Assembly: GCA_004369045.1 (NCBI GenBank)
Contig: ML213515.1
Span: 783,526 to 847,525 of the forward strand
From: Heliocybe sulcata
Taxonomy: Eukaryota; Basidiomycota; Agaricomycetes; Gloeophyllales; Gloeophyllaceae
Direction of reading: 5' to 3'
DNA length: 64,000 bases
A program made the position numbers and the translations under genes. Below are positions 2,162-58,370 of the stretch, piece by piece. The stretch's first letter is position 1; each line of letters opens with the position of its first letter. The notes under the pieces were generated by a model. It did not search any database. It saw only the letters and a program-made list of their open reading frames with translations, and was not told the origin of the DNA.

Positions 2162-2249
2162 GTGCGAGATTCCTTGACTTTTACGATGTGGCACGATACT
2201 GACCTTGTGGCAGGCCGGCCACATCTGTCTCTCAAAACCCTTTCTACAG
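2162..2249 (+). promoter_or_regulatory. Predicted leader intron with TGTGGCACG element
   Basis: A GTGCGAG donor and a TTTCTACAG acceptor frame an 88-bp candidate intron ending 18 bp before the ATG. The element TGTGGCACG is at 2,187-2,195 and is followed by a branch-like CTGAC. The inverted copy at 16,283-16,370 has the same length and borders. The GTGCGAG donor is not optimal, so splicing is inferred. Confidence 0.45.
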
Positions 2250-2267
2250 CAGAGTATACGTCCAGCT

Positions 2268-4016
2268 ATGGCCGTAATCAGCAAACTCTCGAACGAGATC
2301 ATCTCAAAAGTGTTTCATTATCACATCACAGCCTGCGCAAGCGACCCTTGCCGCCGTGGCTGGTCCTACAAGTGGACCAACCTGAGGCTGGTGTGCCGAA
2401 CTTGGGACGAAATACTTAAAGCCTCCGTGTTCTGGAACAAAATACCGGTCACCACTCCTCGTGCTATGGAGTTTGTGATGGAACATGGGATGACGAGGCA
2501 ATTGGAAATCCGGGGCGCCTTATTGAATGTTGCCCGCGAAGCAGAGCAACAGAAGCTCGCGCTGATGCTGGGGCTCGCTGGAGAAATCCGGACAATGAGC
2601 TTAACCATTTCAGAGGACATGTGCCACGCTTGGGATTCTCCCACTCCTAACCCGAGCCACCTAGTCCTCATGAAGGGATCGACGCCTCCTGTGAGGCCCG
2701 TCCAACGCCCCGAGACACTTCTCACCCGCTTCCGGTCACCCGCAGTGCGCAAGCTAGAGTTGCAAGGATTTACCTGGACGGAGATCAGGCCCCTCTTGGG
2801 CGCATTCGTCGAGGACCTGACGCTCGAACGGATGTCGGACATCCCCCTCCAGGACTTTCGGCTCGTCCTGGAAGGCATGAAGAAGCTGCATCGGTTGAGC
2901 ATGTCGAACATAGATTTGGTCGTCCTTCACGGTGCCTCCCTTAGCAACCTCGAATGCCTGGAGCTCGACGGGCGTGGACAGCACGCGGTCAGTGGAAATG
3001 ACCTCCTCACCGCGCTTGGCTTTATGCAGAAACTGGAGCAACTGGACGTCCAGATTAGAGTAACGGGGACTGCCAACAACACTCCTGTGATTACTTTACC
3101 CAACTTGACGTCCTTCAGCGGCGTTCTCCGTCGTTCACGTGATGTCGCATACCTTGGGCACGTAACTGCGCCGAGGATCCGTCATTTCCAGCTGTCCTGC
3201 TGGGATGTCACGCAAAAGGATGATGTCGATCTGAAGGACGCACTGTGGATGGTGAGGTTCCTGGTCCGGCAGCTGATCAGCAACATTCCTCTGCATACTG
3301 CACGGGTCTTTTCACCGTCTTCACAAGCTCTCCACCTCACCCTCTTCGAACACCCCACTTCCCATGTCCGCCCAGAGGACGGCATCCATTTTGAGCTGTG
3401 CGTCGAGGACCAAGGACGGATGATCGACTACATGTCGCGTTATTTGCATTCCCTTTGGCGGCAAACAACAGCATTGTATGTCGGCAACGGGCACTACTCC
3501 GGTAAGGACGCCCTAGAAGCCTGGCATAAGCTCTTTTGGAAGATGAACAAAGTGGAGTGCCTTCACCTGGAGCGGAAGGGAGTGAAGGTGATGCCGGAGG
3601 GTTTACACCACTACGCGACGGATGGCATCGCAGACGTCTTCTTTCCAGCATTACGCATCTTGTACCTCGATAGCGTGTGCTTCCGCCCGCAGCGCAGGAA
3701 GAACCAGGGCAATTGGGAAATCAAGGCAAAGCTAAAGAAGAGGAGCTTTCTCGAAGATCTAAAGAGGTCATTCAGGCTCGGCGACGCCAAAAGCATAAAC
3801 AACCTACTGAGCGCGGACGACAGCGAGTTGAATGTCGAAGAGGCAGTGGTGCAGTTGGACGATGGGACGAAGAGAACGCACTGGACGAAGCCGAAAGACG
3901 ATGGCAAATTTCGTCTTGTTATCAGCAACGCCGTTCGATTGTACGAGAGTGATGTCGAGAAGCTGAAGAAGCCTGGTGTGATCGTCATCTGGGATTTCGT
4001 CAACCGACGGAAGTGA
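2268..4016 (+). CDS. F-box/leucine-rich protein, family 1 (left copy)
   Basis: This intronless ORF encodes 582 residues. ATG 2,268 is chosen because MAVISKLSNEII aligns with the start of the 37,703 paralogue (MALISKLSKELL); the longer frame only opens at a TTG inside the leader. Residues 1-60 form an F-box-like helix set, with LSNEIISKVFHYHI and then LRLVCRTWDEIL...FW. About 110-470 is leucine-rich with irregular repeats but no canonical LRR. The GLHHY block and FPALRILYLDSV follow, then a charged linker, then the C-terminal DVEKLKKPGVIVIWD motif. By family it would bind Skp1 through the F-box and deliver a substrate to an SCF ubiquitin ligase; the substrate is unknown. It is nearly identical to the 14,501-16,264 copy over its first 380 or so residues and clearly diverged after that. 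Confidence 0.85.
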   Translation: MAVISKLSNEIISKVFHYHITACASDPCRRGWSYKWTNLRLVCRTWDEILKASVFWNKIPVTTPRAMEFVMEHGMTRQLEIRGALLNVAREAEQQKLALMLGLAGEIRTMSLTISEDMCHAWDSPTPNPSHLVLMKGSTPPVRPVQRPETLLTRFRSPAVRKLELQGFTWTEIRPLLGAFVEDLTLERMSDIPLQDFRLVLEGMKKLHRLSMSNIDLVVLHGASLSNLECLELDGRGQHAVSGNDLLTALGFMQKLEQLDVQIRVTGTANNTPVITLPNLTSFSGVLRRSRDVAYLGHVTAPRIRHFQLSCWDVTQKDDVDLKDALWMVRFLVRQLISNIPLHTARVFSPSSQALHLTLFEHPTSHVRPEDGIHFELCVEDQGRMIDYMSRYLHSLWRQTTALYVGNGHYSGKDALEAWHKLFWKMNKVECLHLERKGVKVMPEGLHHYATDGIADVFFPALRILYLDSVCFRPQRRKNQGNWEIKAKLKKRSFLEDLKRSFRLGDAKSINNLLSADDSELNVEEAVVQLDDGTKRTHWTKPKDDGKFRLVISNAVRLYESDVEKLKKPGVIVIWDFVNRRK

Positions 4017-7267: not shown

Positions 7268-9812
7268 ATGCCGGACCTCTCAGAGCAGTCGTATATCGCG
7301 CCTCCGACTCATCCAGCCGTGCAGGCAATTACTCAGCCGACGACTTCGACTTTGAGCAACGGACATGTTCAGGCTAACGGCGTTGTTCCGAACGGAGCAG
7401 CTCACGACCCAGCTGCTACGCATCCAAGAGACCATGCTTACGAACAAGCGAGTGGCTCACCACCTACGAACAAGCCACTCCCACCCAAACCCGCACTCTC
7501 CGCGCATCCGACGGAAAACACTGATCATCCATCGACAGCTCCTACCGAACCGTCTTCGACCTCGACTGAGCCAACCATTATTGATACCACTCACCCGCCG
7601 CCCTCTGCTGCTGCAGCAGAAGGCATCCAGTCTTCGCGACAAGACGACGCGTACCCAGCTTCGAACCCAAAGGCGAGACAAGTGCTGAACGGGACGGTTG
7701 TAGGAGAGGAGAACACAGGCGACAAGGGACTTATTGATGTTGGCTGGGACAGACCTACTTCCGGTCAGCTGGTCAGCAGGCTCGATAATGAGGACCTATG
7801 GGCCTTGATTCGGAGGTTCAACAAGGTAAGGACGTTTTCGCGTCAAAGCAAGGTTGTGCTAACTAGGCTATAGCAACTATATCATGTCAAAGCGACTGAT
7901 GGCCCTTTGCCTGGCGGACTGGACCTTTGGCCGGCCGAGGAAGAGGAGTTTGCCCCTGATAAACTGAGGAGTAATTTTGAAAGAGTCTATGTCACGGTGG
8001 TACGTGAAGTTTCACCAGTCAAACGCATGGCGAGGTTCTTAATAGTTCTTCAGGTTACTGGCATGGCCGCCTTCGTGAAGCACGTTGCTCGTCTTCGGTC
8101 ATGGAACGAGAGAAATAGGACTATAGCTTGGTTGGCAGGATACTACATTGCTTGGGCTCTGAACGTGCTCTTCCCAACCATACTCACCCTCCTCTTCACG
8201 CTGATAATGTTCCCTCAATCACGGCCCCTGCTCTTCCCACCCGCACCGCTCGCCGCCGTGTCCGCATCCAGCGGCACCCTCCAGCAACCCCGTTCTGGCC
8301 AACTTGACAGTAAGGATTCGCTGACGGGCGCGCCTGAGACGTACAAGGGCGAAGCTGTTGAGCACGAAGCCTCGAACCTCATCACTGGGCTTGCTGGCCT
8401 CGCAGCAGGCACCGCGATCGGCAAGGCGCCGGAGGAGTCGCGCGCGGACCGCAAGGCTGCGAAAGGCATTGTGGACAACGAGGCGCCGGAAGGGCATGGG
8501 GATAAGATCAGCAAGGCGGTGCCGGATGTTGGCGATGTGATTGCGGGGGCGGGGGATGCGAAGGAGGTCGCGAGTGGGAAGAAGCCGCGGGAGGGGCATG
8601 ATAAGACGAAGGAGCCGGTTAATCAGGCGGTATGGGAGAAGGCGAGGCCGGTGATGAGGGGCGTGGCAGGAGTGGCGGATGTTTGGGAGATGTTTGGGAA
8701 GTGAGTGGAGTAGTTGTGTGCTTTGGTCAATTATCAGGGTCTAATGGTTTGTATTGCAGTGCGCTGTCGCCCACGCCGCCGTTTGGTATTGCGGTTCGAC
8801 TGCGACTTGCGGGCATTATCGCTCCGCTCATTCTGGTCTCCTTGGTCCTAGACGAGAGGCTGGTGTACCAGGGGACGACGTTTATCCTCGGTTTTGTTTT
8901 CTTCGGACAGCCTGTCTTAGTTCGAGGCATCGAATGGCTCGAGAGGAAGGTGCCGAACTGGCAGTGGTACCTGGAACCGCGCAAGTGCGTACTCGAATCT
9001 GCGTTTCTAGCTGCTATTGCTGACGAGTATATCCATGTGCCTGCAGCACGATCCTCAAGGGTGCACCGACGAACGCGCAGCTCACGCTCACTCTCCTGCG
9101 GATTGGAGAAGCCCATAAGGCGCCGCTTCCTCCGCCACCGTCTCGTGGTGTTCAAGAGGCCCCTCCGTCACGTCCAACTACGCCATTAGCGGCTGAGGAC
9201 ATGCCCATGGAGGTTTCACAAGCGGAGCTCGATTCGATCCAACACCCAGATCCCGTGCAGCAGGCTGAAGCTGAGGCGGCGGACCAGAAGGAGCAGGAGG
9301 CCAAACCGAAGAAGCAGCACCGTTTCCTTAATTTTGTCAAGGCAACTGCCCGCACGGGCGTGAGCACCGTGCTCGGCGCTGACCAGGTGCGGGCGAAGGC
9401 GATTGGGGACCAGCATGCGAAGAGACGGTTGGGTGTGCTGCACCATGAGAAGGAGGCGTATAAGGGCCCCACGACGTTCAACGCACGGTACGACGGTAAG
9501 AAGGGCAGGATCGTCATCAGCACCCAAGCTACCTCACCCTGCGTTGCGTTCGTCCCGGGCACAGACTCTGACATGATCTTGGACGCGCTGTGGACGGTTG
9601 GGATCAGCGAGATTCGGGAGCTGAAGAAGGTGGGAGGGTTGGGCGCGAAGGGGCGGTTGGTGGTGGGGTATGCGTTGGGGATGGAGATTGTGGATGGGTT
9701 GGAGATTGTGGGGGCTGATGGGAAGGGGCGGTTGTGTACTGCTATTGAGAAGAGGGAGGAGTTGTTTAATAGGCTTGTGGCGATGGATGGGCAGAAGTGG
9801 GAGAGTTGGTAG
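7268..9812 (+). CDS. DUF3292-type fungal membrane protein
   Basis: I model five exons: 7268-7825, 7874-7999, 8054-8700, 8760-8984 and 9047-9812. All introns are GT..AG (48-62 bp), with CTAAC/CTGAC branch sites visible in the first and fourth. The joined frame is 774 codons (773 residues). The N-terminus is a Pro/Ser/Thr-rich disordered region of about 150 residues. It is followed by DLWALIRRFNKQLYHVKA, which is characteristic of the DUF3292 family as I remember it. Hydrophobic segments include one near TIAWLAGYYIAWALNVLFP and a pair around GIIAPLILVSLVL and FILGFVFFGQ. The C-terminal half is soluble, Gly/Lys-rich and reaches the stop near WESW. The function is unknown; an organelle or endomembrane location is only inferred. 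It is the single-copy-like gene in the centre of the inverted repeat. Two decayed copies lie at 29.7-32.5 kb. Confidence 0.75.
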
Positions 9813-10395: not shown

Positions 10396-11904
10396 TCATT
10401 CACCGCCGTCCTCTTCAGCGTCCCAGGTAACTTTCACCCCCAACTCGCGCAGCGCCTGCACGTCCTTAGGGACCAGCTGCCGTCCTTTAGTTATGGTGAC
10501 GTGGAGCTGCGTCCCAGATGCCGAAGTAAGATTGTTGGGTTTGTGCGCCCCGTTGCGACGCTCTAACGATCTTATCAGAACGCCGAGAAAGCTTGATCTG
10601 GGGGGCTTCCTTAGTATTCTCCCCGGAGGCCTGAACGACACGTCTGTCAAGGAGAGAACCTCGAGGTTCGCAAAGACCGGGTAGTACTTGTCCTTGAACC
10701 ACTCATAGTTCAATCCATCGGGAACCAGCTTCACCGCACCGTCGTCCTCCAAGTGCAAATTGCGGATATGCCCCAAAGCCATGCGTATTTCATGCCAGTA
10801 GCCAGGGGATGAGATGTTGTCTGCATCGGAGACGTGCAGGTCCTCGACCTTTTCAAGGATAGGGCCCATTGTATCAGCTACGATGACAACCCCTTGATGG
10901 GCGCCCCCGACAAATCTGAGCTGAATGCCTTCGGTGGGAACGCTATATCCTGTGGGATCGTTGCTGAACGTGACATGGAGCTCATCGATTAGGCATGTGC
11001 GGAATTGGGCTGTCGGTAGTGGGCAATTCGTAGTGACGGCGGAAAACAGGTGGTTCATATGTATCAAATCGCTCTGCGTATAAGGCACGGCCAAGAGGTG
11101 AATCTCCACGTGTCGAAGGGATGGCGCAGCAATGAACGAGAGAAACTCCGTGCAGCATACACGGATGCTTGCAAGGGACTCTAGATGTGGTAGAGTGACA
11201 GGCTGTACATCCTCCGCCACGCTTGTCTTTCGCCACCCCTCGATACGGAGCCGGCGTAGGTGTGGCATTTCTGCAAGCGCAGCCAAGAGCTCCTCCGTGT
11301 GTAACTCTTCCCCATGATCGTTGACCAGCGTGAGTTCTCCCAGACCACCTTTCAGCGCGGGTCTGACGGCGGTCCAGGGAAAATAACCGAGCTCCAGCTT
11401 TTGCAATTCCGGCGAGTTGAAGTGCGACAGCAGGGCTGCCTCGTTATACCAGTTAGGTCCCGCAAACCGCATTGTCAGCGACAATTCCTTCAGCTTCGTC
11501 ACGGGGGTGGTCCACATCCGCAGGAAGTTCTTGGTGACCTCTAGTTTGAGGCACCTAATTCTATGCTGATTTTGCTGCATGAGCACTAGGTCGGGGTACT
11601 CTGAAGCATAAATATCGTCGGTCCCGTACATCGAACCGCTGATGGACAGTAGTGCCCCCTGGCTATGGCGCAAAGCCACGGGCATTACCCTCCCAGCCCA
11701 TCGGTAGTGGACGGCGATGTCCTTCCAGAATATTGGGGACTCCAGGATCTCCTTCCACCTATTGCATACGATCATTAGCCTGACCCATTCGTATGGGTTC
11801 CCGGGCTGGCGAGGGTGCTGGCGACATCGCTGGCGACAATCAGCAATGTAGTACAGGAAGACTTCCTGAAGGAGTTCAAAGAACAAGTCCTTCATTCCAG
11901 GCAT
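10396..11904 (-). CDS. F-box/leucine-rich protein, family 2 (copy 1)
   Basis: This is a single-exon coding frame of 502 residues. ATG 11,904 (MPGMKDLFF) is used because a predicted leader intron ends 27 bp upstream and the 25,314 paralogue starts identically. The F-box-like segment covers residues 1-65: FFELLQEVFLYYIADC and then LMIVCNRWKEILESPIFW. The leucine-rich middle contains regularly spaced L..L.L units, including HLRRLRIEGW. The C-terminal block is VPDGLNYEW, FANLEVLSLTDVSF, then DVQALRELGVKVTWD. The tail is short and acidic. It is expected to be an SCF substrate receptor with unknown target. The closest relatives in the window are 23,857-25,314 (stop-broken) and, more distantly, 32,799-34,280. 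It faces the DUF3292 gene tail to tail. Confidence 0.82.
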   Translation of the reverse strand: MPGMKDLFFELLQEVFLYYIADCRQRCRQHPRQPGNPYEWVRLMIVCNRWKEILESPIFWKDIAVHYRWAGRVMPVALRHSQGALLSISGSMYGTDDIYASEYPDLVLMQQNQHRIRCLKLEVTKNFLRMWTTPVTKLKELSLTMRFAGPNWYNEAALLSHFNSPELQKLELGYFPWTAVRPALKGGLGELTLVNDHGEELHTEELLAALAEMPHLRRLRIEGWRKTSVAEDVQPVTLPHLESLASIRVCCTEFLSFIAAPSLRHVEIHLLAVPYTQSDLIHMNHLFSAVTTNCPLPTAQFRTCLIDELHVTFSNDPTGYSVPTEGIQLRFVGGAHQGVVIVADTMGPILEKVEDLHVSDADNISSPGYWHEIRMALGHIRNLHLEDDGAVKLVPDGLNYEWFKDKYYPVFANLEVLSLTDVSFRPPGRILRKPPRSSFLGVLIRSLERRNGAHKPNNLTSASGTQLHVTITKGRQLVPKDVQALRELGVKVTWDAEEDGGE

Positions 11905-11931
11905 CTTCACAGGCGGCTTCGAGAGCTACAA

Positions 11932-12000
11932 CTGTGGTCGTGGGCGACGCGTCAGAAGGCGTCAACACGGTGGCACGGGTGAACAAAGGTGATTGCGTAC
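11932..12000 (-). promoter_or_regulatory. Predicted 69-bp leader intron carrying CGTGCCAC element
   Basis: On the minus strand the borders are GTACGC and ACCACAG. The element, read as GTGGCACGG on the plus strand, is at 11,970-11,978, followed on the gene strand by TGTTGACG, a branch-like site. The second family 2 block has an intron of the same length at 25,342-25,410. A second GTGGCAC lies further upstream at 12,178-12,184. Confidence 0.5.
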
Positions 12001-12424
12001 GTTAGGGTCTGATGTTACGAAGGAGAGCGACGTGAGCTGATAGCAATGCAGTGGCAATTGGTGGTCCTCCGGAGAATGTGTTCTGGAACGAGATGCAGTA
12101 CCGGAGCGTACGCGTACAAGACGAGCGTGGCTCGGGTTCGTGCCGGTGTGGTTGTTGGGTCCCGCTGCGTGGTCTGTGTGGCACTTGTTCCCACGATTCT
12201 CTCCTCTGTTCTGTGCTGCGAAGGAACCTCTGACCGTTCTTGTAATTCAAGCCGCACGGAGAGGATTGTGATGCTAGAGTAACTTTGCCGTGGATTCAGT
12301 CACTAATCGCAGTGGCTTATGACTAAACTGAGCGGGAGTAGTATGTTTTACTCATCCTCAGATCCTGGCTCCTCGTCGTGCTAACTTGCAACACCTCTCA
12401 GCCAAGGAAATCGGAAAGTTCAAA

Positions 12425-14500: not shown

Positions 14501-16264
14501 TCACTTCCGACGATTGACGGAATCCCAGATGACGAACATTCCAGGCTTCTTCATCTTCTCGACATCACTCTTGTACAGTCGAACGGCATTGTTAATGAGG
14601 AGACGGAATTTGCCATCGTCTTTGGGTTTCGTCCACTGTGTTCTCTTTGTCCCATCCTCCAACTCGACGGCACCCTCGTCCAAGCGTGCCTCGTCCTCCG
14701 ACTTGTTGTCGTTCTCGTTCGGTAGGTTATTTGTGCTTCTGGCGACATCAAGGAGCTTGAATGACCTCTTCAGATCTTCAAGAAAGCTCCTCTTCTTCGC
14801 CTTGGTCTTGACATCCCAATTGCCCTGGTTCTTCCTGCGCTGCGGTCGGAACCAGACACCATCGAGGTACAAGATGCGTAATGCTGGAAAGAAGACGTCT
14901 GCGATGCCATCCGTCGCGTAGTGGTGTAAACCCTCCGGCATCACCTTCACCCCCTTCCGCTCCAGGTGAAGGCACTCCACTCGCTTCATCGTCCGAAAGA
15001 GCTTATGCCATGCCGCTAGGGCGTCTTTACCCGAGTAGTGCCCGTCGCGGACGTACAGGGCTATTACTCTCCGCCAAAGCGAACTCAAATAATGCGACAT
15101 GTAGTCGATCATCCGTCCTTGGTCCTCGACGCACAGCTCAAGATGGATGCCGTCCTCTGGGCGGACATGGGAAGTGGGGTGTTCGAAGAGGGTGAGGTGG
15201 AGGGCTTGTGAAGACGGTGAAAAGACGCGTGCAGTATGCAGAGGAATGTTCGTGATCAGCTGCCGGACCAGGAACCTCACCATCCACAGTGCGTCCTTCA
15301 GATCGTCATCATCCTTTTGCGTGCCATTCCAGCAGGACAGCTGGAAGTGACGGATCCTCGGCGCAGTTACGTGCCCAAGGTATGCGACATCACGCGAACG
15401 ACGGAGAACGCCGCTGAAGGACATCAAGTTGGGTAAAGTAATCACAGGAGTGTTGTTGGCAGTCCCCGTTACTCTAATCTGGACGTCCAGTTGCTCCAGT
15501 TTCTGCATAAAGCCAAGAGCGGTGAGGAGGTCATTTCCACTGACTGCGTGCTGTCCACGCCCGTCGAGCTCCAGGCATTCGAGGTTGCTAAGGGAGGCAC
15601 CGTGAAGGACGACCAAATCTATGTTCGACATGCTCAACCGATGCAGCTTCTTCATGCCTTCCAGGACGAGCCGAAAGTCCTGGAGGGGGATGTCCGACAT
15701 CCGTTCGAGCGTCAGGTCCTCGACGAATGCGCCCAAGAGGGGCCTGATCTCCGTCCAAGTAAATCCTTGCAACTCTAGCTTGACCACTGCAGGTGACCGG
15801 AAGCGGGTGAGAAGCGTCTCAGGGCGCTGGACGGGCCTCACAGGAGGCGTCGATCCCTTCATGAGGACTAGGTGGCTCGGGTTAGGAGTGGGAGAATCCC
15901 AAGCGTGGCACATGTCCTCTGAAATGGTTAAGCTCATTGTCCGGATTTCTCCAGCGAGCCCCAGCATCAGCGCGAGCTTCTGTTGCTCTGCTTCGCGGGC
16001 AACATTCAATAACGCGCCACGGATCTCCAATTGCCTCGTCATCCCATGTTCCATCACAAACTCCATAGCACGAGGAGTGGTGACCGGTATTTTGTTCCAG
16101 AACACGGAGGCTTTAAGTATTTCGTCCCAAGTTCGGCACACCAGCCTCAGGTTGGTCCACTTGTAGCACCAGCCACGGCGGCAAGGGTCGCTTGCGCAGG
16201 CTGTGATGTGATAATGAAACACTTCTGAGATGATCTCGTTCGAGAGTTTGCTGATTACGGCCAT
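14501..16264 (-). CDS. F-box/leucine-rich protein, family 1 (right copy)
   Basis: This single-exon gene encodes 587 residues. The start MAVISKLSNEII is at 16,264, as in the left copy. The F-box-like segment (1-60) and the leucine-rich body are almost the same as 2,268-4,016. I count only four amino-acid differences in the first 290 or so residues and about eleven by residue 400. The last third is much more divergent: SLWRRVIALYVRDGHYSG replaces SLWRQTTALYVGNGHYSG, and the charged linker after the FPALRILYLDGV block differs in length. The C-terminal DVEKMKKPGMFVIWD motif is kept. It is expected to be an SCF substrate receptor. The last third resembles the 18,959-19,638 fragment more than it resembles the left copy. 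Confidence 0.85.
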   Translation of the reverse strand: MAVISKLSNEIISEVFHYHITACASDPCRRGWCYKWTNLRLVCRTWDEILKASVFWNKIPVTTPRAMEFVMEHGMTRQLEIRGALLNVAREAEQQKLALMLGLAGEIRTMSLTISEDMCHAWDSPTPNPSHLVLMKGSTPPVRPVQRPETLLTRFRSPAVVKLELQGFTWTEIRPLLGAFVEDLTLERMSDIPLQDFRLVLEGMKKLHRLSMSNIDLVVLHGASLSNLECLELDGRGQHAVSGNDLLTALGFMQKLEQLDVQIRVTGTANNTPVITLPNLMSFSGVLRRSRDVAYLGHVTAPRIRHFQLSCWNGTQKDDDDLKDALWMVRFLVRQLITNIPLHTARVFSPSSQALHLTLFEHPTSHVRPEDGIHLELCVEDQGRMIDYMSHYLSSLWRRVIALYVRDGHYSGKDALAAWHKLFRTMKRVECLHLERKGVKVMPEGLHHYATDGIADVFFPALRILYLDGVWFRPQRRKNQGNWDVKTKAKKRSFLEDLKRSFKLLDVARSTNNLPNENDNKSEDEARLDEGAVELEDGTKRTQWTKPKDDGKFRLLINNAVRLYKSDVEKMKKPGMFVIWDSVNRRK

Positions 16265-16282: not shown

Positions 16283-16370
16283 CTGTAGAAAGGGTTTTGA
16301 GGGACAGATGTGGCCGGCCTGCCACAAGGTCAGTATCGTGCCACATCGTAAAAGTCAAGGAATCTCGCAC
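16283..16370 (-). promoter_or_regulatory. Predicted leader intron with TGTGGCACG element (right family 1 copy)
   Basis: The element is at 16,337-16,345 (CGTGCCACA on the plus strand). The intron borders GTGCGAG and CTACAG, and the 88-bp length, equal those at 2,162-2,249. Confidence 0.45.
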
Positions 16371-19924: not shown

Positions 19925-21778
19925 TTAATCGTACTCCTCGTCTTCCTCCGATACATACTCCTCTTCTTCCCATTGGACGTCCTGGCTCGCATACTCTTGC
20001 TCTTCGGACGTGTCGTGATCGGATTTCTCGACTGGAAGCTCATCCCATACGATTTGGGAGATGAGAGTTTCCAGCAACAGGATATCATCCTCGAAGAGAT
20101 TGAATGCCCGTGTGATCGTGAGTCTTTTGATAGTGTTGCTGACGCAACGTTGATAAAGTCTTCCCAGCTGTCCAACAGCTTCGGCTTTGGGGCTTCTGAT
20201 TCGACTTCGGCGGAGGATCGATGACACCAGGGTGTCCAAGAAGTTTTTCTCGTGCTCGTCGGTAGATGGCGGGGACTCCCAGAACCATACACCTTCTAGT
20301 TCCAATGACTCCAGCGCAGGAAAGAGGACATGGAACACAAGGGACCCCCCGACCTTTGTTGGATACACGAGGCCCGTAGGTATCGTTGAGGTACTGTGTC
20401 CTGACAGCTGCAGCTTTCTGATGTGCAACGTGGACAGAAAGAATTCTCTCCACGCCGTCGCCATGTAATCCGCATACCCGCGCCCATTCCGAACGCTCAA
20501 ACACTGGGCGGACTCGAGCAGGGAGCGCAGGTGCTGCTTGAGGAGGTATAGGATGAGGTCTCCGTATCCCAATTCGTGATCGAACACAATTGTAATGCCT
20601 TCGGTCTGCGTGATCACACATGTGGAGGCTGCCTGCGGCGTGAACATGACACAAGTGCGCCGACCGTCGAGAACTTGGATGGTGCATCTGCGGAGATCGA
20701 CGGATGTGAGGTGGCAAGCGTGTTGTTCCAGGACCTCCACCACGTCCTCGAAATCGGAACATATTTTGAGGCCTACGCGCTTGATATTCGGGGCTCTGAC
20801 GAACGCCAGCAAGTCGGCTTCTCCGGCGCTGCAGGGGCTGATCTCTAAAGTGCGCAGGTCCTGCAATACGACGTTCTTCACCAGGCCAGCGGTCTCGGCT
20901 GTGCGCTGGACTTTCACCCCAAGTCTGAACGTCCGCAGCTTGGGCGCGCACGATAGCACACGAACTACCTCGCCTGTCGTCATGACGGTCTCAGTCCCGG
21001 AAATGTGGAGGTCCGTCAACGTCGCGGTGATCAGCATGCTGAACTCGTCGAAGCGAAACGCTGCACCACTCAGCCGTACGCGGTTCAAGACAGGTGACGC
21101 GAAGAGGGACAAGTCGGCCTGTCCCAGTCCGGTTTTGCCGACGCGCACGATGGCGAGGTCTTCCAGCAGGTTCGCTCCAGGGCCGGCCTGCCCACTGGTT
21201 TGGGCCAGAATGCGCGAGGACACCTTTAAATCCAGCTTGCGGATGCGGGGTAGTTCTTCCCGAATAAGAGACCACTTCTCTACGTCGGTCTGTCGTGCTG
21301 CTTCAATGATGTCACTTCTATGGTGTTCCCAGTCGCCCAACGCTCTCTCCATTCTTGCTCGCTCGGATGGCATCAACCTCTTGCACTCCCTCTCGAGCTT
21401 GTCCTCCAGTTGCCAGATAGTCTCCTCCACCGCCGCTAGTTCCTGACTAGTCGATGCCCTTCTCTCTCCGACAAGAGCGCCAATAACGGTCAAGGGGAGT
21501 TGGTTAGAACGAGCAAGGAACCATGGCATTGCGTTTTGGTTCGTGGTAAATACCGTGGTCCAGAGAGTGTGGTATTGGAGGGCGGCAGCGCGCCACGCTT
21601 TGCTGACCAGCGCGACGGAGGTCCAGGCGTAAGGTGACACACTGCCACTTCGTAGCACATCCTCTATTGTCCTTTCCTTCAGGATTGAAAAGATTATTCC
21701 GAGTAGCTCGGGTGGCAAGGCGATTCGCCGTGCCACGGCGGTGTTGAACACCCTGCCGTTAATGCGATATTTGACCAT
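19925..21778 (-). CDS. F-box protein with coiled-coil, family 4
   Basis: The product is 617 residues from ATG 21,778; the frame is open 75 codons further upstream but without supporting similarity. The F-box-like segment is at residues 18-70 (LPPELLGIIFSILKER, then VALVSKAWRAAALQYHTLW). Residues 100-160 form a heptad-like charged segment (ETIWQLEDKLERECKRLM), likely a coiled coil. The leucine-rich body contains ASPVLNRVRLSG and the IPTGLVYPTKVGG block. LTITRAFNLFEDD is the family C-terminal motif, followed by a Glu/Asp/Tyr-rich tail. It is expected to be an SCF substrate receptor with an additional dimerisation segment. It is clearly homologous along its length to 56,316-58,255. The intact state contrasts with the nonsense-broken copy at 3-782. 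Confidence 0.83.
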   Translation of the reverse strand: MVKYRINGRVFNTAVARRIALPPELLGIIFSILKERTIEDVLRSGSVSPYAWTSVALVSKAWRAAALQYHTLWTTVFTTNQNAMPWFLARSNQLPLTVIGALVGERRASTSQELAAVEETIWQLEDKLERECKRLMPSERARMERALGDWEHHRSDIIEAARQTDVEKWSLIREELPRIRKLDLKVSSRILAQTSGQAGPGANLLEDLAIVRVGKTGLGQADLSLFASPVLNRVRLSGAAFRFDEFSMLITATLTDLHISGTETVMTTGEVVRVLSCAPKLRTFRLGVKVQRTAETAGLVKNVVLQDLRTLEISPCSAGEADLLAFVRAPNIKRVGLKICSDFEDVVEVLEQHACHLTSVDLRRCTIQVLDGRRTCVMFTPQAASTCVITQTEGITIVFDHELGYGDLILYLLKQHLRSLLESAQCLSVRNGRGYADYMATAWREFFLSTLHIRKLQLSGHSTSTIPTGLVYPTKVGGSLVFHVLFPALESLELEGVWFWESPPSTDEHEKNFLDTLVSSILRRSRIRSPKAEAVGQLGRLYQRCVSNTIKRLTITRAFNLFEDDILLLETLISQIVWDELPVEKSDHDTSEEQEYASQDVQWEEEEYVSEEDEEYD

Positions 21779-25314: not shown

Positions 25315-25341
25315 CTTCACAGACGGCTTTGAGAGCTGCAA

Positions 25342-25410
25342 CTGTGGTCGTGGGCGACGCGTTAAAAGGCGTCAATACGGTGGCACGGGTGAACGAAGGC
25401 GATTGCGTAC
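25342..25410 (-). promoter_or_regulatory. Predicted 69-bp leader intron with CGTGCCAC element (family 2 copy 2)
   Basis: Borders GTACGC and ACCACAG. The element is at 25,380-25,388, followed on the gene strand by TATTGACG. A second GTGGCAC lies further upstream at 25,581-25,587, as in copy 1. Confidence 0.5.
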
Positions 25411-25950
25411 GTCAGGGTCTGATGTTACAAAGGAAAGAGACGTGAGCTGATAACGATGCAGTAGCACAGTGGTGCTCTGGAGAATGAGTTCTGGGACGAG
25501 ATGCAGTACCGCAGAGTACGCGTACAAGACGAGCGTGGCTCGCATTCATGCTGGTTGGTCCTGCTGCCCGCGTGGTCTGTGTGGCACTTCCCACGATTCT
25601 TGCCTCGATTCTATTCGCTGCTACCGATCGCCGAGTTCTCGTCGATACGAGCTCTTGAGCGGTCAATACAGGTTTGTGGAATGCGACTCTCGTTTCTATA
25701 TCATTGGTTCTTACATGAAGTAGTCATCTGAACAGGTTCCATGATGAAGACATCTCTCTGTCCTTGGTGCTGCGAAGACACCTCCGACCGTTCTTGTAAT
25801 CCAAGCCGCACAGAGAGAAATTTTGCCATGGCCTGGTCATCAATTGCGTTGGCTGGTATCCAACGGTGCGGATAGAGTACGTTCTACTCATCCTCAGATC
25901 CTGGCTCCTTGTGATGCTAACTTGGAGCACGTCTCAGCCAACGAGATACG

Positions 25951-29075: not shown

Positions 29076-29161
29076 CTGGCGTAGGAATGGTGATTAGGGG
29101 GGTGCATTGGCTGTGCCACGGTCAGACGTGCCACAAGCAGAAATCGACTGCAGAAGCTTAC
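29076..29161 (-). promoter_or_regulatory. Predicted 86-bp leader intron with two GTGGCAC elements
   Basis: This is one of the best leader introns in the set: AAAGAG|GTAAGC donor, CCTAATC branch and CGCCAG acceptor, ending 29 bp before the ATG. Elements are at 29,112-29,120 and 29,127-29,135, both reading GTGGCAC on the gene strand. Confidence 0.6.
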
Positions 29162-34347: not shown

Positions 34348-34356
34348 TGTGGCACG
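34348..34356 (+). promoter_or_regulatory. TGTGGCACG element upstream of 32,799-34,280
   Basis: On the gene strand it reads CGTGCCACAGAACTGAC, with the branch-like CTGAC directly following. A CGCCAG or CTCGCAG acceptor lies downstream, before the ATG. It is 68 bp upstream of the start codon. Confidence 0.5.
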
Positions 34357-37714: not shown

Positions 37715-37805
37715 CTCGGTAGTAAAAGAATGGTAACGTATGGATTTGGCCTGGCCCGAGGTTAGATGTATCGTGCCACACGTTAAAAATCGAGGAAACT
37801 CGTAC
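37715..37805 (-). promoter_or_regulatory. Predicted leader intron with TGTGGCACG element (35,946-37,703 gene)
   Basis: Donor GTACGAG, acceptor ACTACCGAG, 91 bp. The element is at 37,772-37,780 and is followed on the gene strand by ATCTAACC. The surrounding sequence still aligns with the leaders of the two close family 1 genes. Confidence 0.45.
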
Positions 37806-39882: not shown

Positions 39883-39973
39883 CTATAGAGACAGGATTGA
39901 GCATATGTAGTCACGTAGGGTAGATGTGGCACGATGATATGGTAGGAACCGTTAAGCAATAGAAATGCCTCAC
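39883..39973 (-). promoter_or_regulatory. Predicted 91-bp leader intron with CGTGCCAC element
   Basis: Strong borders: CTACAG|GTGAGG and CTCTATAG, ending 5 bp before the ATG. The element is at 39,925-39,933 (TGTGGCACG on the plus strand). Confidence 0.6.
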
Positions 39974-44054: not shown

Positions 44055-45668
44055 TTATAGAGAATCTTCGACACCGTCCTCCTCCTCACTGTCATCCTCG
44101 TCGGTATCTTCAGCTTCTTCTTCTGACTTGTCGTCTTCCTCCAGCCAACCAATCTCCCTCTCTCCAAAGATCTCAACCGTGTCATCCGCCATGTTTCCGC
44201 CGTCCTCTTTTCCGGTTGGACCAGTCCAGTGAATGGTGTAAATTGTCTTCTCCAGATCCGCGACGTCCGTTTCCTTCAAATTCACCAGGTAATCAATAGT
44301 AAGGTTTCTTTCTTCGTTTCCCAGCTGGGAGTGCTGAATGGACCTTAGCAGGAGGTCCACAAAATCGTCCTCATTATGATCGCGGAACGTCTTGCGGAAC
44401 CGCACGTAGCGCAACGCCATCTTGTGTATGTCTGGGCAGGCAAGCACCCAAATTTCCTCCTGCGTAGACCAGATTAGCTTCTTCCTACGAATGAGACGTG
44501 CCGGGAATGGGCCTATGAGGTGTCGCGTGGGCTCGAGGCTAGGATCATTGTACAACCGCATATCCTGGATCTTGAGGGCCCTTATCTGATCCAGCGTTGG
44601 ACCGAGGGCCTCTGCTAAGGCATCGTATAGGAAGGCCTCTTCCTCCTCGATATACTGTTGTATTACCAATTCCAATTTCGGTCCCCTTTCACCGTCTTCC
44701 TCCGCCGTCGACGCGTCTCGTGCGGAAGGCGGCGACAGCACCACAGTTGTGTGAGTGGTGCTGTAGTGGGACAGTGTGCATGCTGTATAGTCATTTTCGA
44801 TAGCAATCGCATTGCTCTTTGGACCGATGGTGTTGATAATGCCTCGGATCTCCTCGAGATCGTCGCTGATGATGTCCAGGTTGATACACGCCTTTCCAGG
44901 ATGTATAAGGTGAGTGAACACCTCGGCAGCGGGCCTGTTCACGAAACGGAGGCTGAGCTTCTCTAGGTGAGGGAGCGTGACATCACGCCTTGTTCCGTCA
45001 TCTACCACGGCCACGCAGATGTTCAGGCGTCTCAGGTTCGATGTTGCGGTCAGCGCAGTCCAGACATCTTCGGCTGTCGCTTTAGTACCGCCTGAGACAC
45101 TCAAATGCTCGATGCTAGCCGACATCATGTGCTGGGCGGCTCGAAGGGGAATCCTGAAGGTTGCGAGGTCCTCCAAGCCAGGGGTAAGGAAAGGAAGGGT
45201 GACGGTGGGAGGTATGGTATATCTGTCGTTGCCAACCTGGTGCCAGAGTTCCGCGCGTAACAAGCTCGGCATCCGCCACATCTCGGGCACCCTCTCCGTA
45301 CAAAGTTTCTCCCAAAGAGCCCCGGGAATATCCATGTGCAAGGAGACAATCCGCTCCGAGTAGAGCTCAAGGACGTCGAAGAACTCGGACGCCCTCTCCT
45401 CATCGACATGCTCGGTCAAGACGAGGCTCACGTCTGGCTCTGCTGCACGCTCCAGGAACAAAGCAGCGAGAGCGGGATTGTCGGTATTGATGAAGTTCCA
45501 CAGATCCCTCTTGCTTATCAAGATTTCTCGCACCTTCCTGGAAACCTGCGTCATCATCAAGAGTACCCTCATCCGATCTTGCTGCCTTCGGATGTTGGTT
45601 GCGCTAACAAATATTTTCTCCACGATCTCCAAGGGCATTGCGTTCATGGAAATGGGAGCGAAAGCCAT
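44055..45668 (-). CDS. F-box protein, family 3 (copy 2)
   Basis: The product is 537 residues from ATG 45,668 (MAFAPISMNAMPLEIVEKIF). The F-box-like segment (8-60) ends SKRDLW. The body parallels 27,409-29,046 closely: LAALFLERAAEPDV, SLHMDIPGALWEKL and the FPARLIRRKKLIW patch. CPDIHKMALRYVRFRKTFRD and the NLTIDYLVNLKETDVADLEK motif follow. The C-terminus is a Glu/Asp-rich tail of about 60 residues with several DEDD-type clusters. It is expected to be an SCF substrate receptor. Its 3' flank (43,846-44,050) also matches that of the 27.4-kb copy, so the whole gene unit was duplicated. Confidence 0.82.
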   Translation of the reverse strand: MAFAPISMNAMPLEIVEKIFVSATNIRRQQDRMRVLLMMTQVSRKVREILISKRDLWNFINTDNPALAALFLERAAEPDVSLVLTEHVDEERASEFFDVLELYSERIVSLHMDIPGALWEKLCTERVPEMWRMPSLLRAELWHQVGNDRYTIPPTVTLPFLTPGLEDLATFRIPLRAAQHMMSASIEHLSVSGGTKATAEDVWTALTATSNLRRLNICVAVVDDGTRRDVTLPHLEKLSLRFVNRPAAEVFTHLIHPGKACINLDIISDDLEEIRGIINTIGPKSNAIAIENDYTACTLSHYSTTHTTVVLSPPSARDASTAEEDGERGPKLELVIQQYIEEEEAFLYDALAEALGPTLDQIRALKIQDMRLYNDPSLEPTRHLIGPFPARLIRRKKLIWSTQEEIWVLACPDIHKMALRYVRFRKTFRDHNEDDFVDLLLRSIQHSQLGNEERNLTIDYLVNLKETDVADLEKTIYTIHWTGPTGKEDGGNMADDTVEIFGEREIGWLEEDDKSEEEAEDTDEDDSEEEDGVEDSL

Positions 45669-45733: not shown

Positions 45734-45757
45734 CGTGGCACGAGTGGGCGTGCCACG
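45734..45757. promoter_or_regulatory. Inverted pair of GTGGCAC elements upstream of family 3 copy 2
   Basis: CGTGGCACG at 45,734-45,742 and its complement CGTGCCACG at 45,749-45,757 form a perfect 9-bp inverted repeat with a 6-bp spacer. It lies 66-89 bp upstream of the ATG. A GCACTAG acceptor occurs between it and the start. The donor side (AAAGAG|GTCAGA) is weak compared with the equivalent AAAGAG|GTAAGC at 29,161. Confidence 0.55.
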
Positions 45758-47853: not shown

Positions 47854-48122
47854 AGCTCCAAATCAGTTCATCAATTTTGACGTAGTCCAATCTCACCAAG
47901 CCACTTCTGCTCTTCTCCATTCTTGCTCCTAAATCGTGAGTGTTCCTTGGCCGTCTGCTGTGCGTCGCACTGAGGGCAAGACATCGATAAAGCGAAAGCT
48001 CCAGATCAATTCTCAGTTTCCGCATATCACAAAACATCCAAGACACTTCTCCTTCTGATTTGGAACCGTGAGTGCTTCTTCAACACGACTGCTGTGCGTG
48101 CCACTGATGGCAAGACATCCAG
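47854..48122 (+). repeat. Tandemly duplicated leader of family 5 gene
   Basis: Two imperfect copies (about 47,854-47,987 and 47,998-48,122) each begin AGCTCCA(A/G)ATCA. Each has a CGTGAGTG donor-like site, then CTGCTGTGCGT and GGCAAGACATC. Only the copy next to the ATG has the intact CGTGCCAC element (48,097-48,104); the distal copy reads CGTCGCAC. Confidence 0.7.
48068..48122 (+). promoter_or_regulatory. Predicted 55-bp leader intron with CGTGCCAC element
   Basis: The GTGAGTG donor and CATCCAG acceptor place the intron end directly against the ATG at 48,123. The element is at 48,097-48,104, overlapping a branch-like CTGAT. Confidence 0.5.
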
Positions 48123-49880
48123 ATGTATCCAGCATACCAAAAGCCAGCATACACAGCAGGTAATATCCCACAAGACGTTATGGCTCGTGTCGCGACGTTC
48201 TTTCAGGCGGGACAAGTAATAGAAGAAGGGGAGGCTGCGCCACGGAGCGCATGGTTATCCAGTGCATCTGTTTGCCGAAGCTGGGCAGACGGATTTCTTG
48301 CTTCTAGTGCCACTTGGGCTTGGATCGTCATCGGAAGTGTCGCATCTTTGGCTGAATCCATCAGCCGGTCAAGAAAGGAGCTCCTGACCGTGAAAGGAGA
48401 CCTGAGTAAGGGCGAGGAAGACGATAATGTCACCAAGATCAGCATGGTCATGGCTCAGGCAGACCGGCTTTATTCCCTCTGCATATCATCCTCATCGACA
48501 GTGCTGCAGCGGTCTCACCATCCCAACACCCAAGCCGGCATCCTTACTCCTTGCTTGAAGGTACTGGACATGACCATGCAGGGGCCAGACAGGACGGATT
48601 TCTTTCGGTGGTTCACTGGGTCACAACTACGAGCACTACGGATCAACGGCTTCCACTTCTCCGACTTCTCCTCCCTGCTCAACGCATCCCTCATGACTCT
48701 GACGGAGCTCTCGCTCATCAACATCGACTGGAAACCTGACCTCAATGAGATGATGGATCTCTTGGACCAAATGCCGCAGCTCGAGAAGCTGAACTTGGAC
48801 GTCGCAGTGAACTGGGTACAGATTGGAAACAATGGAGTCAACCTTCCATTCTTGCGAGAACTTACTCTACATCATCTGGGTGTGGCGGAAGCGAATCTCA
48901 TCCAGCTCCTGGATACGCCTATCCTAGAGCGCATCAGTTTCGGGATTGTACCGAATTTTGCTATGGACTATATCATGACTGCCATCCACAGCAAGATCAT
49001 ACAGGTCTCTACGAAGACGGCATTCCAAGCCGGTGGACTGCGCAGCGAAAAGCCCGGAGGGCGACTACAATACATGCTTGCAGAGGATGTCGCCAGCTTG
49101 ACCTGCGTGGAGCAGCGGCCCGGCCTTACTCTGGTATTCGACGGGTGGGATATTGCGGGCGAAGAGGTGGTGGCCCACATCATCTCATTCTATGTTGGGG
49201 AATGTGGAAGTGAAGTTCGCCATCTTACTGTTGACAACGTGAGCCTCCACGCAAACAGTGCACTGCAAGTGTGGTGGGATATCCTCCTCCGCATGCCCAC
49301 CGTGGAGACGCTCGAGATCAGCGGCCAGCACACTTCCGTGTTCGCTGCCGGATTGTGTGTTCCTGCACATACTGGAGCACCCTTCGACCCGCTGTTCCCA
49401 ACTCTGAAGAGTGTCGAGTTCGTCAGCGCTTGGTTCCGGCCCTACACAGATGTCGCAGCCCGTGACATCGACTACCATCTCATAACAAGGCTGGTTAAGC
49501 CTTATCAGTTTTGCGAGAACTCGCAGAAAACGACAAGCCTTACTATTGCGGAGAGTATCAATTTCGGCGAGTACGAGGTTCGGCTACTTCGTGACATTTT
49601 CACAGTCGACGGCGTCAACTGGGATGGGAAGCAGGACTTGCGCAATCCTGACTACCGGCTGGAGGATGCCACTGTGAAAGACGGGGATGAGGAAGAGCAC
49701 GATAGGTCCGTCGAGATAGACGAAGGAGATCTGGGAGGTGCAGGGGATGAGGCGGATGCTCCTGTCCATCGCAATGGCGACGAAAATTTCTCCGACGCGT
49801 CACAGAGTGGTATCGAAGACGATTCGAGGTATGAGACTGATAATGAGGAGGATTGTGGGGGTCCAATGTTGGGTAGGTGA
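48123..49880 (+). CDS. F-box protein, family 5
   Basis: A single coding exon of 585 residues starts at ATG 48,123. The F-box-like segment is at residues 14-70 (IPQDVMARVATFFQ, SASVCRSWADGFLASSATW). The leucine-rich body contains GSQLRALRINGF and LTELSLINIDW. AAGLCVPAHTGAPFDPLFP with LKSVEFVSAWFRP is the family GL...FP block. LTIAESINFGEYEVRLLRD then VNWD is the C-terminal motif. The last 70 residues are strongly acidic (EEEHD, DNEED). It is expected to be an SCF substrate receptor with unknown target. Only its overall layout links it to the other families. A tail-only duplicate lies immediately downstream. Confidence 0.82.
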   Translation: MYPAYQKPAYTAGNIPQDVMARVATFFQAGQVIEEGEAAPRSAWLSSASVCRSWADGFLASSATWAWIVIGSVASLAESISRSRKELLTVKGDLSKGEEDDNVTKISMVMAQADRLYSLCISSSSTVLQRSHHPNTQAGILTPCLKVLDMTMQGPDRTDFFRWFTGSQLRALRINGFHFSDFSSLLNASLMTLTELSLINIDWKPDLNEMMDLLDQMPQLEKLNLDVAVNWVQIGNNGVNLPFLRELTLHHLGVAEANLIQLLDTPILERISFGIVPNFAMDYIMTAIHSKIIQVSTKTAFQAGGLRSEKPGGRLQYMLAEDVASLTCVEQRPGLTLVFDGWDIAGEEVVAHIISFYVGECGSEVRHLTVDNVSLHANSALQVWWDILLRMPTVETLEISGQHTSVFAAGLCVPAHTGAPFDPLFPTLKSVEFVSAWFRPYTDVAARDIDYHLITRLVKPYQFCENSQKTTSLTIAESINFGEYEVRLLRDIFTVDGVNWDGKQDLRNPDYRLEDATVKDGDEEEHDRSVEIDEGDLGGAGDEADAPVHRNGDENFSDASQSGIEDDSRYETDNEEDCGGPMLGR

Positions 49881-50009
49881 TTATAGGGCTTGAGCACACT
49901 GTACGTATCGTCCAGTCCGATAGAAATCGTTCGTATTGTTCATTTCATGAGATAGATGAGAAGGAAAAACGTCTGGGATGAATACAATACACCTTTATGA
50001 TGGGGGAGA

Positions 50010-51420: not shown

Positions 51421-51479
51421 GTATGCTGTTGTGGAATGGGCACTGCGCAAGTTGTCCTTGTGCAACGTGAGCCAAATAA

Positions 51480-52261: not shown

Positions 52262-52285
52262 TTGCTATGTCCACATGCAAGTCAG

Positions 52286-55309: not shown

Positions 55310-55327
55310 GATGGTTAACGAGATCCT

Positions 55328-55377
55328 CTGTGGCACGTTAATCAGGTCATATGGCACGGCGTATGGAAAGCCCACAC
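55328..55377 (-). promoter_or_regulatory. Predicted 50-bp leader intron ending in CGTGCCACAG
   Basis: Donor CAGG|GTGTGG, branch CTGATTAAC, acceptor CCACAG. The element (55,329-55,337, TGTGGCACG on the plus strand) here overlaps the 3' splice site itself. A near-copy, ATGGCACGG, lies at 55,350-55,359. Confidence 0.5.
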
Positions 55378-56315: not shown

Positions 56316-58255
56316 TCAGAGGTCACAGTACGCGTCCTCCCATTCGCCTTCGTCTTCATCCTCATATTCCTCACCTCCTCCTGCTGTCTGCCTCGGCCCC
56401 TCTTCCTGCTCGCGCCCATCCCAGGAAACTCTAGGGAACATTCCGTAGGCGAACAGCTCATCGAGGAACATAACATCTTCCGCAAAGATATTGATACTTT
56501 TCGTGATTGTAAGGTGTTTGACGTTCTCAAGGTCGCTCGAGCGCTGACAAGATCTTATCAGACCCATGGAGCCATCCTCGTGATTGAAGTCTTCGTGGAG
56601 TTGCCGCTCAAACGACTTCATAAGAAGGTGGAAGAAATTGCCCTGGTCTTGGCCACGACCAGCGGACGACTTCCGGAACCACACCGCCTCGAACTCGAGC
56701 GATGACAGCCGAGGGAAGAGCGACGGCCAGCACACATGCCCATCATGCAGGTCACGGTACACGAGGCCTGTCGGGAGCATCGACGTACTGCCTGAAACGT
56801 GCAGATCCTTGACAGCTGGCATCGCGAGCAAAAACCTTTTCCACGTCTCGACAGCCTGTTCGATCTGTGCTCGTCCATCTTGGAGGCTAAGGCATTGGAT
56901 GCCGCGAAGTGTAGGCTGGAAATGGCGACGAAAGAGGTCGACGACCATGTATTCGTCTTTCCGGTAGTAGCCATCCATCACTACCTGTACGCCCTCGGTC
57001 GGACATGGGGACTTGACTGCCGCTGGCTCCGATGTAAGAATGAATTCAGTCGTCTCGATTCCCGACCCGCGGACCGCGTAGCCCCGAAAGGTCTTCGGCG
57101 AAAGCATGTCGATCGCCTTCCCGACGACTTCGACGACCTTCGACGCCTTGGCATACCAACAGATATGGATGTACGCGAGCTCGAGCACTGGAGCGCGTAT
57201 GAACGTAAGGATGTCGGCTTCACCGACGTTGCTGACCAACAGGGTCAACCGATGTAGGGCAGGCAAGGTGACGACTTTGATGAGCGCGTTGTTCTCCCAC
57301 GTGTGCCGAACTGAGACGCTCAACTTCAGGCTCTCCAGAAGAGGCGTCCTGGACAGCAGCTCGATGATGGCTCCAGTCGTCGAGGCCGCATGGATGTTGC
57401 TAATATCCAACTCCCTCAACATCGAGCAAGCCAGCATGCCAAAGTCGTCGAACGACTGGAACCCGGAAACCTTCAGGCGACGGAGGACTGGGGACGCGAG
57501 CCGCGACAGATCGACGGGTCCCTCGCAGTGCACCTGCCTGATCTCGAGGTCCTCCAGCATCATGGCCTTGTGTGTACCCGTCCGCCCGATCTTCGCCAGG
57601 ATCGCGGATGATATAGTGAGGTGAAGAGACTGAGTGTGGTGGAGGTGACGGCGTATCAGCGCTAATTTGTGGAAGCTCTGGTCCATCTCCCGGTCGGCTT
57701 CCCTATACAGTCTATCCTCCTCTTCGGCGATCCACCACTCTCGCATTCGCAACTTTCCCAAGACCCTCAACTGCTCCCCCGAGAGCTCGAGCTTCCTCTC
57801 CAGTACCTCGAGGTATTCTTCAAATGTTGCTAGCTCCTGGTTCAGGGCTTCTATCGTGGATTCCTCGAGTGGCTTGGGCGTGATCGACCCGGTGATGGTC
57901 AAGGGAGCCCGCTTGGCGCGCAGCAGGGCCTCTTTGAGAGCATCGAAGCTCACCATCAATCCAACCCTGGCCCATATCCTCGGATTGTCGATGAGCGTCT
58001 CCCTCCACGTCTTGGATATCTGCGCCATCGAGAGGAGCGCCTTTTCTTGGTTATCCGACCCCGCAACGACGTAGGCGGTGATCTCAGCGATGATTTCGCG
58101 GGACGTCCTATTCGACTGGATTAGAGGGAGGGCAAGGCCGCTGACAACGGGGCTAAGCGGCCACATCGGCGACAGTCAGAGCTGTGGCACGGTCCAATAT
58201 GGCAGATGACTCACTTGGTAGGTAGTGCGGCAGAGTAACGAGGCCTCTTGATCAT
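56316..58255 (-). CDS. F-box protein with coiled-coil, family 4 (second intact member)
   Basis: I favour two exons: 58,215-58,255 (ATGATCAAG...) and 56,316-58,152. They are joined across a 62-bp intron with GTGAGT donor, CTCTGAC branch and CTTAG acceptor, giving 625 residues. The alternative is an unspliced start at ATG 58,166 (616 residues). The F-box-like segment follows (SREIIAEITAYV, MAQISKTWRETLIDNPRIW). A charged heptad stretch (ELATFEEYLEVLERKLEL) is likely a coiled coil. The leucine-rich body holds ASPVLRRLKVSG. The LPTGLVYRDLHDGH block, FPRLSSLEFEAVWFR and LTITKSINIFAEDV then VSWDG end the fold. The last 30 residues are acidic. It is expected to be an SCF substrate receptor, and it is the intact relative of the scrambled fragments near 1.1-1.7 and 18.2-19 kb. 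Confidence 0.8.
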
Positions 58256-58370
58256 AATGTAAGCTTTGGAGGTGATGTTGTTTCTGGTGAAAATGCAAGG
58301 TGGCGACGATGGTGGCAGTTAGAACTGTGGCACTGAGCCAGGATGCGGAGACTCACTTGTACGACATGGT
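58153..58370 (-). promoter_or_regulatory. Duplicated first-exon/leader unit with GTGCCACAG elements
   Basis: Two units about 145 bp apart share, on the gene strand, CAAGTGAGTC, then GTGCCACAG(C/T)TCT(G/A)ACTG. The elements are at 58,183-58,191 and 58,326-58,334. The distal unit carries its own tiny open exon (58,357-58,367, ATGTCGTACAA) before an identical GTGAGT donor in the same phase. It could serve as an alternative first exon. A third, weaker echo lies near 58,450-58,500. Confidence 0.5.

Follow-up and report, generated by a model that had tools for sequence, protein, structure and literature searches.

Introduction

Members of large gene families can have one 5′ element in common: the upstream elements of the Plasmodium var genes and the junction element of the Pneumocystis MSG genes are of this type, being longer or lying upstream of the gene. 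Here, we describe a short palindromic word, GTGSCAC (S = G or C, i.e. GTGGCAC or its complement), at the 5′ ends of F-box/leucine-rich repeat (LRR)-like genes that form a cluster in a 64,000-nt stretch of DNA (C13:783526-847525, hereafter the window) from what looks, judged by gene structure, like a basidiomycete. It resembles the var and MSG elements as one 5′-end element across a large family, and differs from them in its length of 7-11 bp and its position, mostly in predicted introns.

The AP-1/Gcn4-type basic leucine zipper site is TGASTCA, the core of the E-box bound by basic helix-loop-helix proteins is CANNTG, and in Gal4-type zinc-cluster sites the CGG/CCG triplets are most conserved. 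Like TGASTCA, GTGSCAC is a 7-bp palindrome of odd symmetry whose dyad falls on S, the form to be expected of a dimer site; unlike it, it has the half-site GTG instead of TGA, and the word as selected, present in 14 of 15 lineages, is not the AP-1/Gcn4 core. Nor does it correspond to the E-box core, and the outer C and G at -2 and +8, holding only ~0.24 bits, do not behave like the triplets of a Gal4-type site.

How large F-box sets are jointly controlled is, to our knowledge, an open question. Mushroom-forming fungi can have large sets of this kind; for Flammulina filiformis, passages of one study report 210 annotated F-box genes, 80 of them developmentally expressed (PMC7567395). Introns raise mRNA levels in basidiomycetes, and the abstracts of the two reports on intron-dependent expression, unlike the present case, name no shared short word (PMC3744415, PMC8379801). 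Fission yeast hotspot motifs (M26 ATGACGT, CCAAT, Oligo-C, 4095 GGTCTRGACC and 4156 TCGGCCGA) are likewise short DNA words, some of them palindromic, and excerpts of the work describe known binding factors for three of the five (PMC6827382); they differ in sequence and have no tie to the introns of one gene family. The identical 7-bp word serves as the symmetrised Mnt half-site in a model of odd symmetry (PMC3176789), an artificial variant of a phage repressor site without biological link. In the open-licence literature, we found neither a description of such a group-wide F-box site nor GTGGCAC as a fungal motif; the 9-mers and GTGSCAC turned up solely in that unrelated Mnt methods paper.

Results

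A palindromic word is concentrated at the 5′ ends of the clustered F-box genes

GTGSCAC occurs 27 times in the window versus 8.55 copies expected, and none of 100 shuffled sequences reached this number; the 9-bp form YGTGGCACG occurs 11 times versus 0.86 expected. An earlier sequence-only reading had estimated chance numbers of about 8 and about 1, in agreement with these values, and each copy of GTGGCAC or its complement that it listed was found in place to within a base. Its list was incomplete: seven of the 27 copies (2,621; 15,905; 21,730; 31,858; 47,796; 48,307; 50,865) were absent from it. All but 21,730 lie outside 5′ ends, and this copy (21,729/21,730) is also F-box-linked, lying at the beginning of the coding sequence of a minus-strand F-box gene (ATG 21,778). 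Altogether, 16 of the 27 sites fall in 5′ ends, taken as -200 to +60, of F-box genes whose start could be read, including three damaged genes.

The cluster extends past both window edges. When the flanks C13:733526-783525 and 847526-877525 were read in addition (144 kb in total, with 13.3 kb of N excluded from the counts), the 5′ ends of 25 genes, together 6.5 kb when taken from -200 to +60 around the ATG, contained 34 sites with 0.87 expected, versus 23 sites in the other 124 kb with 16.6 expected (p 0.08, near background). Thus, the excess is a feature of 5′ ends. All results refer to one genome, to predicted start codons and to lineages of common ancestry. In the 31.6 Mb searched, GTGSCAC was found 4217 times, or once per 7.5 kb (reversed control 3391). 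The longer forms were mildly over-represented genome-wide, with 667 versus 475 copies in the reversed control for YGTGGCACG and 99 versus 67 for CYGTGSCACRG.

The intact and near-intact genes of the cluster sort into subfamilies A to I, with protein identities across subfamilies of ~19-45% where aligned by blastp. A Pfam F-box scan of seven group proteins gave three hits above the cut-off and two below it, and two proteins had weak LRR hits alone, their link to the rest being provided by blastp. The ratio of nonsynonymous to synonymous substitution rates was 0.27-0.41 in ten of ten pairs, from which the group genes look functional; by the same values, there was no positive selection across whole genes.

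The word is also recovered when no motif is assumed. In a word count over 15 diverged lineages, GTGCCAC was found in 14, within -200 to +50 of the ATG, and the best non-overlapping word reached five; the fifteenth lineage has GTGGCAC 255 nt upstream. When 15 control 5′ regions were drawn at random 60 times, the top degenerate 7-mer was present in six to nine of them, never in more. The 9-mer CGTGCCACA is present in 10 of the 15 lineages.

The site marks one F-box gene group

Wherever the start of a cluster gene could be read (24 genes), the site was present no more than 300 nt upstream of the F-box (F-box offsets placed by eye), in line with the earlier claim that the element stands at the leaders of the cluster's F-box genes. 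Fragments without a readable 5′ end at C13 757446, 783405, 802332 and 834607 were left out of the counts, as was a fragment on C26 with GTGCCAC 146 nt ahead of the matching stretch. Relatives were sought by whole-genome protein searches with three members (A5, F3 and D2), by which members near only other subfamilies may be missed. Most matches fell in C13:681-893 kb; further ones were on C33 and, at isolated places, on C6, C11 and C26. Fifteen further 5′ regions were added after the first count, the fifteenth (C26) being the fragment. Each of the ten added relatives on C13 (726, 731, 720, 683, 877 and 893 kb) and C33 (four) has the site upstream, so that it was found at the front end of all 34 readable group genes read on these two contigs. 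In two C33 genes, the sites lie at least 255 nt ahead of the first ATG of the long exon, which is an apparent start only, and in the 877-kb C13 gene, the ATG is lost from where it would be expected.

Among other F-box genes, only 6 of 60 had a site within 300 nt of the F-box. These controls were hand-picked from the upper part of a list of 97 hits outside C13 and C33, many short-frame hits being omitted. Fisher's test for 24/24 versus 6/60 gave p 9e-16, a value that is overstated because paralogues are not independent. The controls keep a weak excess, with 6 versus 2.35 expected within 300 nt (p 0.03) and 12 sites versus 5.55 within 700 nt (p 0.01). The site therefore marks one F-box gene group, on contigs C13 and C33, rather than F-box genes at large, and the wider claim of a mark of F-box genes generally was rejected.

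Some copies elsewhere were recorded. The F-box gene at C5:437131 (L119), which does not belong to the group, carries CTGTGCCACAG 296 nt and another GTGGCAC 223 nt upstream of its F-box; this gene may be a further target, or the copies may be due to chance. GTGCCAC at C1:328482-328488 lies 54 nt upstream of the F-box hit C1:328536, which is not one of the 60 controls. Two related stretches on C1 (L122 and L123, at 397 and 438 kb) hold six and five GTGSCAC within ~600 nt; inspection of the site clusters on C1 (397, 438, 159 and 558 kb) revealed no clear link. Strong sites elsewhere look like background: among 20 of the 50 listed CYGTGSCACRG places (99 in total), a GTRHG was present in 8 of 40 strand tests, and 8 of the 20 lay in open frames of at least 150 codons.

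Consensus and conservation of the site

Over 29 chosen sites, the consensus was C-Y-GTG-S-CAC-R-G, which is palindromic, with ~0 information further out. Y was found at -1 in 26 sites, R at +7 in 24, C at -2 in 15 and G at +8 in 16; these four outer columns are independent of the selection and show the dyad symmetry of a dimeric transcription-factor site. The set leaves out the additional sites of C1, D5, Db1 and K4, and every site of the other close copies. Turning the sites to centre C raised the flank information above that of 98.8% of random flips (1.2% do as well). In subfamilies D and F, the centre base swaps between G and C while GTG and CAC are fixed, the swap in F affecting the copy in coding sequence, and all five genes of subfamily A carry the flipped form TGTGGCACG. 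The earlier argument that use of either orientation favours a DNA-level site was partly automatic, the 7-mer being palindromic save for its centre base; the flipped asymmetric form in A fits a DNA-level site. Symmetry together with flank coupling would look like the pattern of a double-stranded DNA site read by a dimer.

The surroundings of the site have diverged. Flank identity among 14 lineages averaged 27%, which bears out the statement that sequence around the element cannot be aligned between families. The site is kept at 35% flank identity between B and C, and D1-D4 retain both of their sites at 47-53% flank identity, the second varying solely at the centre base and the outer flanks. These data bear on the simplest explanation, that duplicate copies carry the word by plain inheritance or chance and that it persists without function. 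Eight of the 16 window sites in 5′ ends do fall in three duplicate pairs (A1/A3, C1/C3 and D1/D2), so that the copies are not independent. The 15 lineages, at ~20-50% protein identity, keep the word nevertheless, as do D1-D4, and we regard this explanation as largely refuted and very improbable.

Position of the site relative to predicted introns

A 5′ splice-like GTRHG occurs 20-46 nt upstream of the site in 12 of 14 lineages (hand tally, D counted via D1), and in 30 of 41 sites in the gene sense versus 7 of 41 in the antisense direction. Its rate per position was 0.118 in control leaders and 0.147 across the group's own leaders. A branch-like CTRAC or TTGAC starts 4-8 nt past the 7-mer in A, B, C and H, and 2 nt past the first D1 site. 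H1 (58,166) and its two copies, H2 and H3, have two predicted introns of 73 and 62 nt with one site each; these join the coding exons in frame, and exon 2 differs by 3 nt without a change of frame. Two C33 genes resemble H and likewise look to have two predicted introns with a site.

These findings could point to an action at the RNA level, in which an RNA-binding protein would recognise GUGSCAC close to the branch point or at the 3′ splice site of the pre-mRNA and would govern whether the early introns of the whole group are spliced or retained. The excess of centre C in the gene sense (20 of 29 sites) and the dependence of basidiomycete expression on introns, as described in two studies (PMC3744415, PMC8379801), would fit this explanation. 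A single-stranded site, however, would not be expected to show dyad symmetry or a joint flip of centre and flanks. In subfamily F, the site lies within open coding sequence, and GTRHG is absent from the 20-46 nt interval in D2-D4, Gb and the F coding copy (F4 excepted). GTGSCACN{2,9}CTRAC was not enriched genome-wide (112 versus 125 in the reversed control), and a genome-wide splicing element was rejected on this ground; 15 of the 100 listed places (112 in total) lie in C13:740-872 kb. Taken together, we consider an RNA-level action rather unlikely. The placing in leader introns proposed earlier holds, as a prediction, for most of the group, with the F site as an exception, and predicted early introns appear to be the usual, not the sole, location of the site.

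Similarity of close paralogues at the 5′ end

In 6 of 11 close pairs (one marginally), the genes were most alike at the 5′ end. Differences at fourfold sites in the first versus the last coding quarter amounted to 2/69 versus 12/44 for A1/A3 and 2/58 versus 10/41 for B1/B2 (B2 at 32799-34280; B1 in L041), with a weak trend for F1/F2 (0/75 versus 4/69, p 0.05). The first quarter versus the other three gave 0/75 versus 37/210 for H2/H3 (L045, L046) and 4/67 versus 55/191 for H1/H2; for H1/H3, the values by quarter were 4/67, 17/70, 26/67 and 7/56. H2 and H3 were 100% identical in each 100-nt bin from -200 to +800. In a comparison of C1 with C3 (window 10396-12104 and 23857-25514), the 200 nt ahead of the ATG were 85-91% identical in 100-nt bins and the coding sequence ~53-81% over the first 1500 nt.

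The similarity of the 5′ quarter looks like the result of conversion tracts covering the leader. The site might accordingly be an exchange mark that, probably via a bound factor, opens the 5′ end to recombination, with conversion tracts running from the leader into the 5′ half of paralogues. Promoters, however, draw conversion without any special motif. In five of the 11 pairs (A1/A2, A4/A5, F1/F3, F1/F4 and D1/D2), all of them site-bearing, no 5′ trend was observed; the comparison with the last quarter or with the other three was picked pair by pair, and long shared stretches in the alignments extend past the site on both sides. In favour of an exchange mark are the six pairs above and a precedent from fission yeast, where short motifs act as hotspots of meiotic recombination and three of five have known transcription factors (PMC6827382); we judge this role improbable.

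Positions of the elements

The elements at the F-box genes of the window are compiled in Table 1. In the middle of the cluster, at window positions 7874-9809, two adjacent open frames match consecutive parts of DUF3292 (PF11696) and probably represent a single gene split by an intron or frame break.

Table 1. Elements and candidate introns at F-box genes of the window
Feature	Position	Strand	Context
TGTGGCACG	2187..2195	+	7-mer starts 80 nt ahead of ATG 2268, F-box gene A1 (2268-4016 +)
Candidate leader intron of A1 holding TGTGGCACG	about 2162-2213	+	
CGTGCCACC (gene sense)	11969..11977	-	72 nt ahead of ATG 11904, F-box gene C1 (10396-11904 -)
TGTGGCACG	16337..16345	-	80 nt ahead of ATG 16264, F-box gene A3 (14501-16264 -), A1 duplicate
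CGTGGCACG	21729..21737	-	Within coding start of F-box gene F3 (ATG 21778, 19925-21778 -); codons V-A-R
CGTGCCACC (gene sense)	25379..25387	-	~73 nt ahead of ATG 25314, damaged F-box gene C3
TGTGGCACG + CGTGGCACA (two elements)	29112..29135	-	88 and 73 nt ahead of ATG 29046, gene D1 (27409-29046 -)
CGTGCCACA (gene sense)	34348..34356	-	75 nt ahead of ATG 34280, F-box gene B2 (32799-34280 -)
TGTGGCACG	37772..37780	-	76 nt ahead of ATG 37703, F-box gene A5 (35946-37703 -)
CGTGCCACA (gene sense)	39925..39933	-	55 nt ahead of ATG 39877, damaged gene E2
CGTGGCACG + CGTGCCACG (two elements)	45734..45757	-	88 and 73 nt ahead of ATG 45668, gene D2 (44055-45668 -)
CGTGCCACT	48097..48105	+	25 nt ahead of ATG 48123, gene G1 (48123-49880 +)
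Candidate intron of G1, GTGAGT...CAG			Ends at ATG 48123, contains CGTGCCACT
CGTGCCACA (gene sense)	55329..55337	-	27 nt ahead of ATG 55309, damaged gene I2
CGTGCCACA (gene sense)	58183..58191	-	In predicted coding intron 2 (about 58153-58214) of gene H1
AGTGCCACA (gene sense)	58326..58334	-	In predicted coding intron 1 (about 58284-58356) of H1; predicted ATG near 58367
CCGTGCCACAG			One double-stranded form of the site

Discussion

A palindrome close to the start of each member that could be read on C13 and C33, and conserved despite diverging flanks, suggests with moderate confidence a binding site of one dimeric sequence-specific DNA-binding regulator for one diverged F-box/LRR group. Of the three roles put forward by the sequence-only reading, a shared DNA-level protein site fits best, given the dyad consensus, the G/C swap at the centre, the flip in A and the coding copy in F; the last two also speak against a role in splicing, for which the GTRHG ahead of the site in 12 of 14 lineages speaks. 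A homodimer, or a pair of related subunits, would bind the site as DNA and would act on transcription from just inside the gene, i.e. from the leader intron, an early coding intron or, in F, the coding start. The group would be switched as a unit via the common site, which may have been inherited from the group's ancestor and held by purifying selection. As judged from these features, the site would act like a group-wide regulator site, its intron-borne placing being the unusual part.

Several observations weigh against a dimer-bound regulator site. The 29 sites were hand-chosen and are non-independent, with several per gene in cases, and selecting GTGSCAC builds in part of the symmetry, which is tested only by the columns -2, -1, +7 and +8. 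Tested column by column, the centre is weakly coupled to the flanks (Fisher p 0.03 and 0.15 for the two sides), the preference for C at the gene-sense centre amounts to a strand bias, and the linkage to GTRHG is not required of a purely DNA-level site. The upstream copy of subfamily F is disrupted in F3 and fails to align in F4. Four genes on C6 (790, 858 and 860 kb) and C11 have no site within 300 nt; the one at C6:858 kb entered through the F-box list alone, and C6:860788 was counted among the 60 controls as well. The 790-kb relative on C6 lacks the site in the 669 nt ahead of its first ATG and scores about as high against F3 as the C33 genes (47.1 versus 32.3-52.9 bits), indicating that loss or absence occurs in the wider family. 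Finally, we found no known factor with a GTGSCAC site.

It is also conceivable, if quite improbable, that one factor does a double job, switching the whole F-box repertoire and turning the leaders into exchange hotspots by its binding. If true, promoters and F-box ends would stay uniform while the 3′ substrate-binding halves diverge, and the set of ubiquitin-ligase adaptors would have a built-in renewal.

Placed in predicted early introns and in one coding start, the site bears on whether fungal first introns contain transcriptional sites. As a short, group-wide and presumably selectively kept site, it would offer a direct handle on the joint control of F-box sets.

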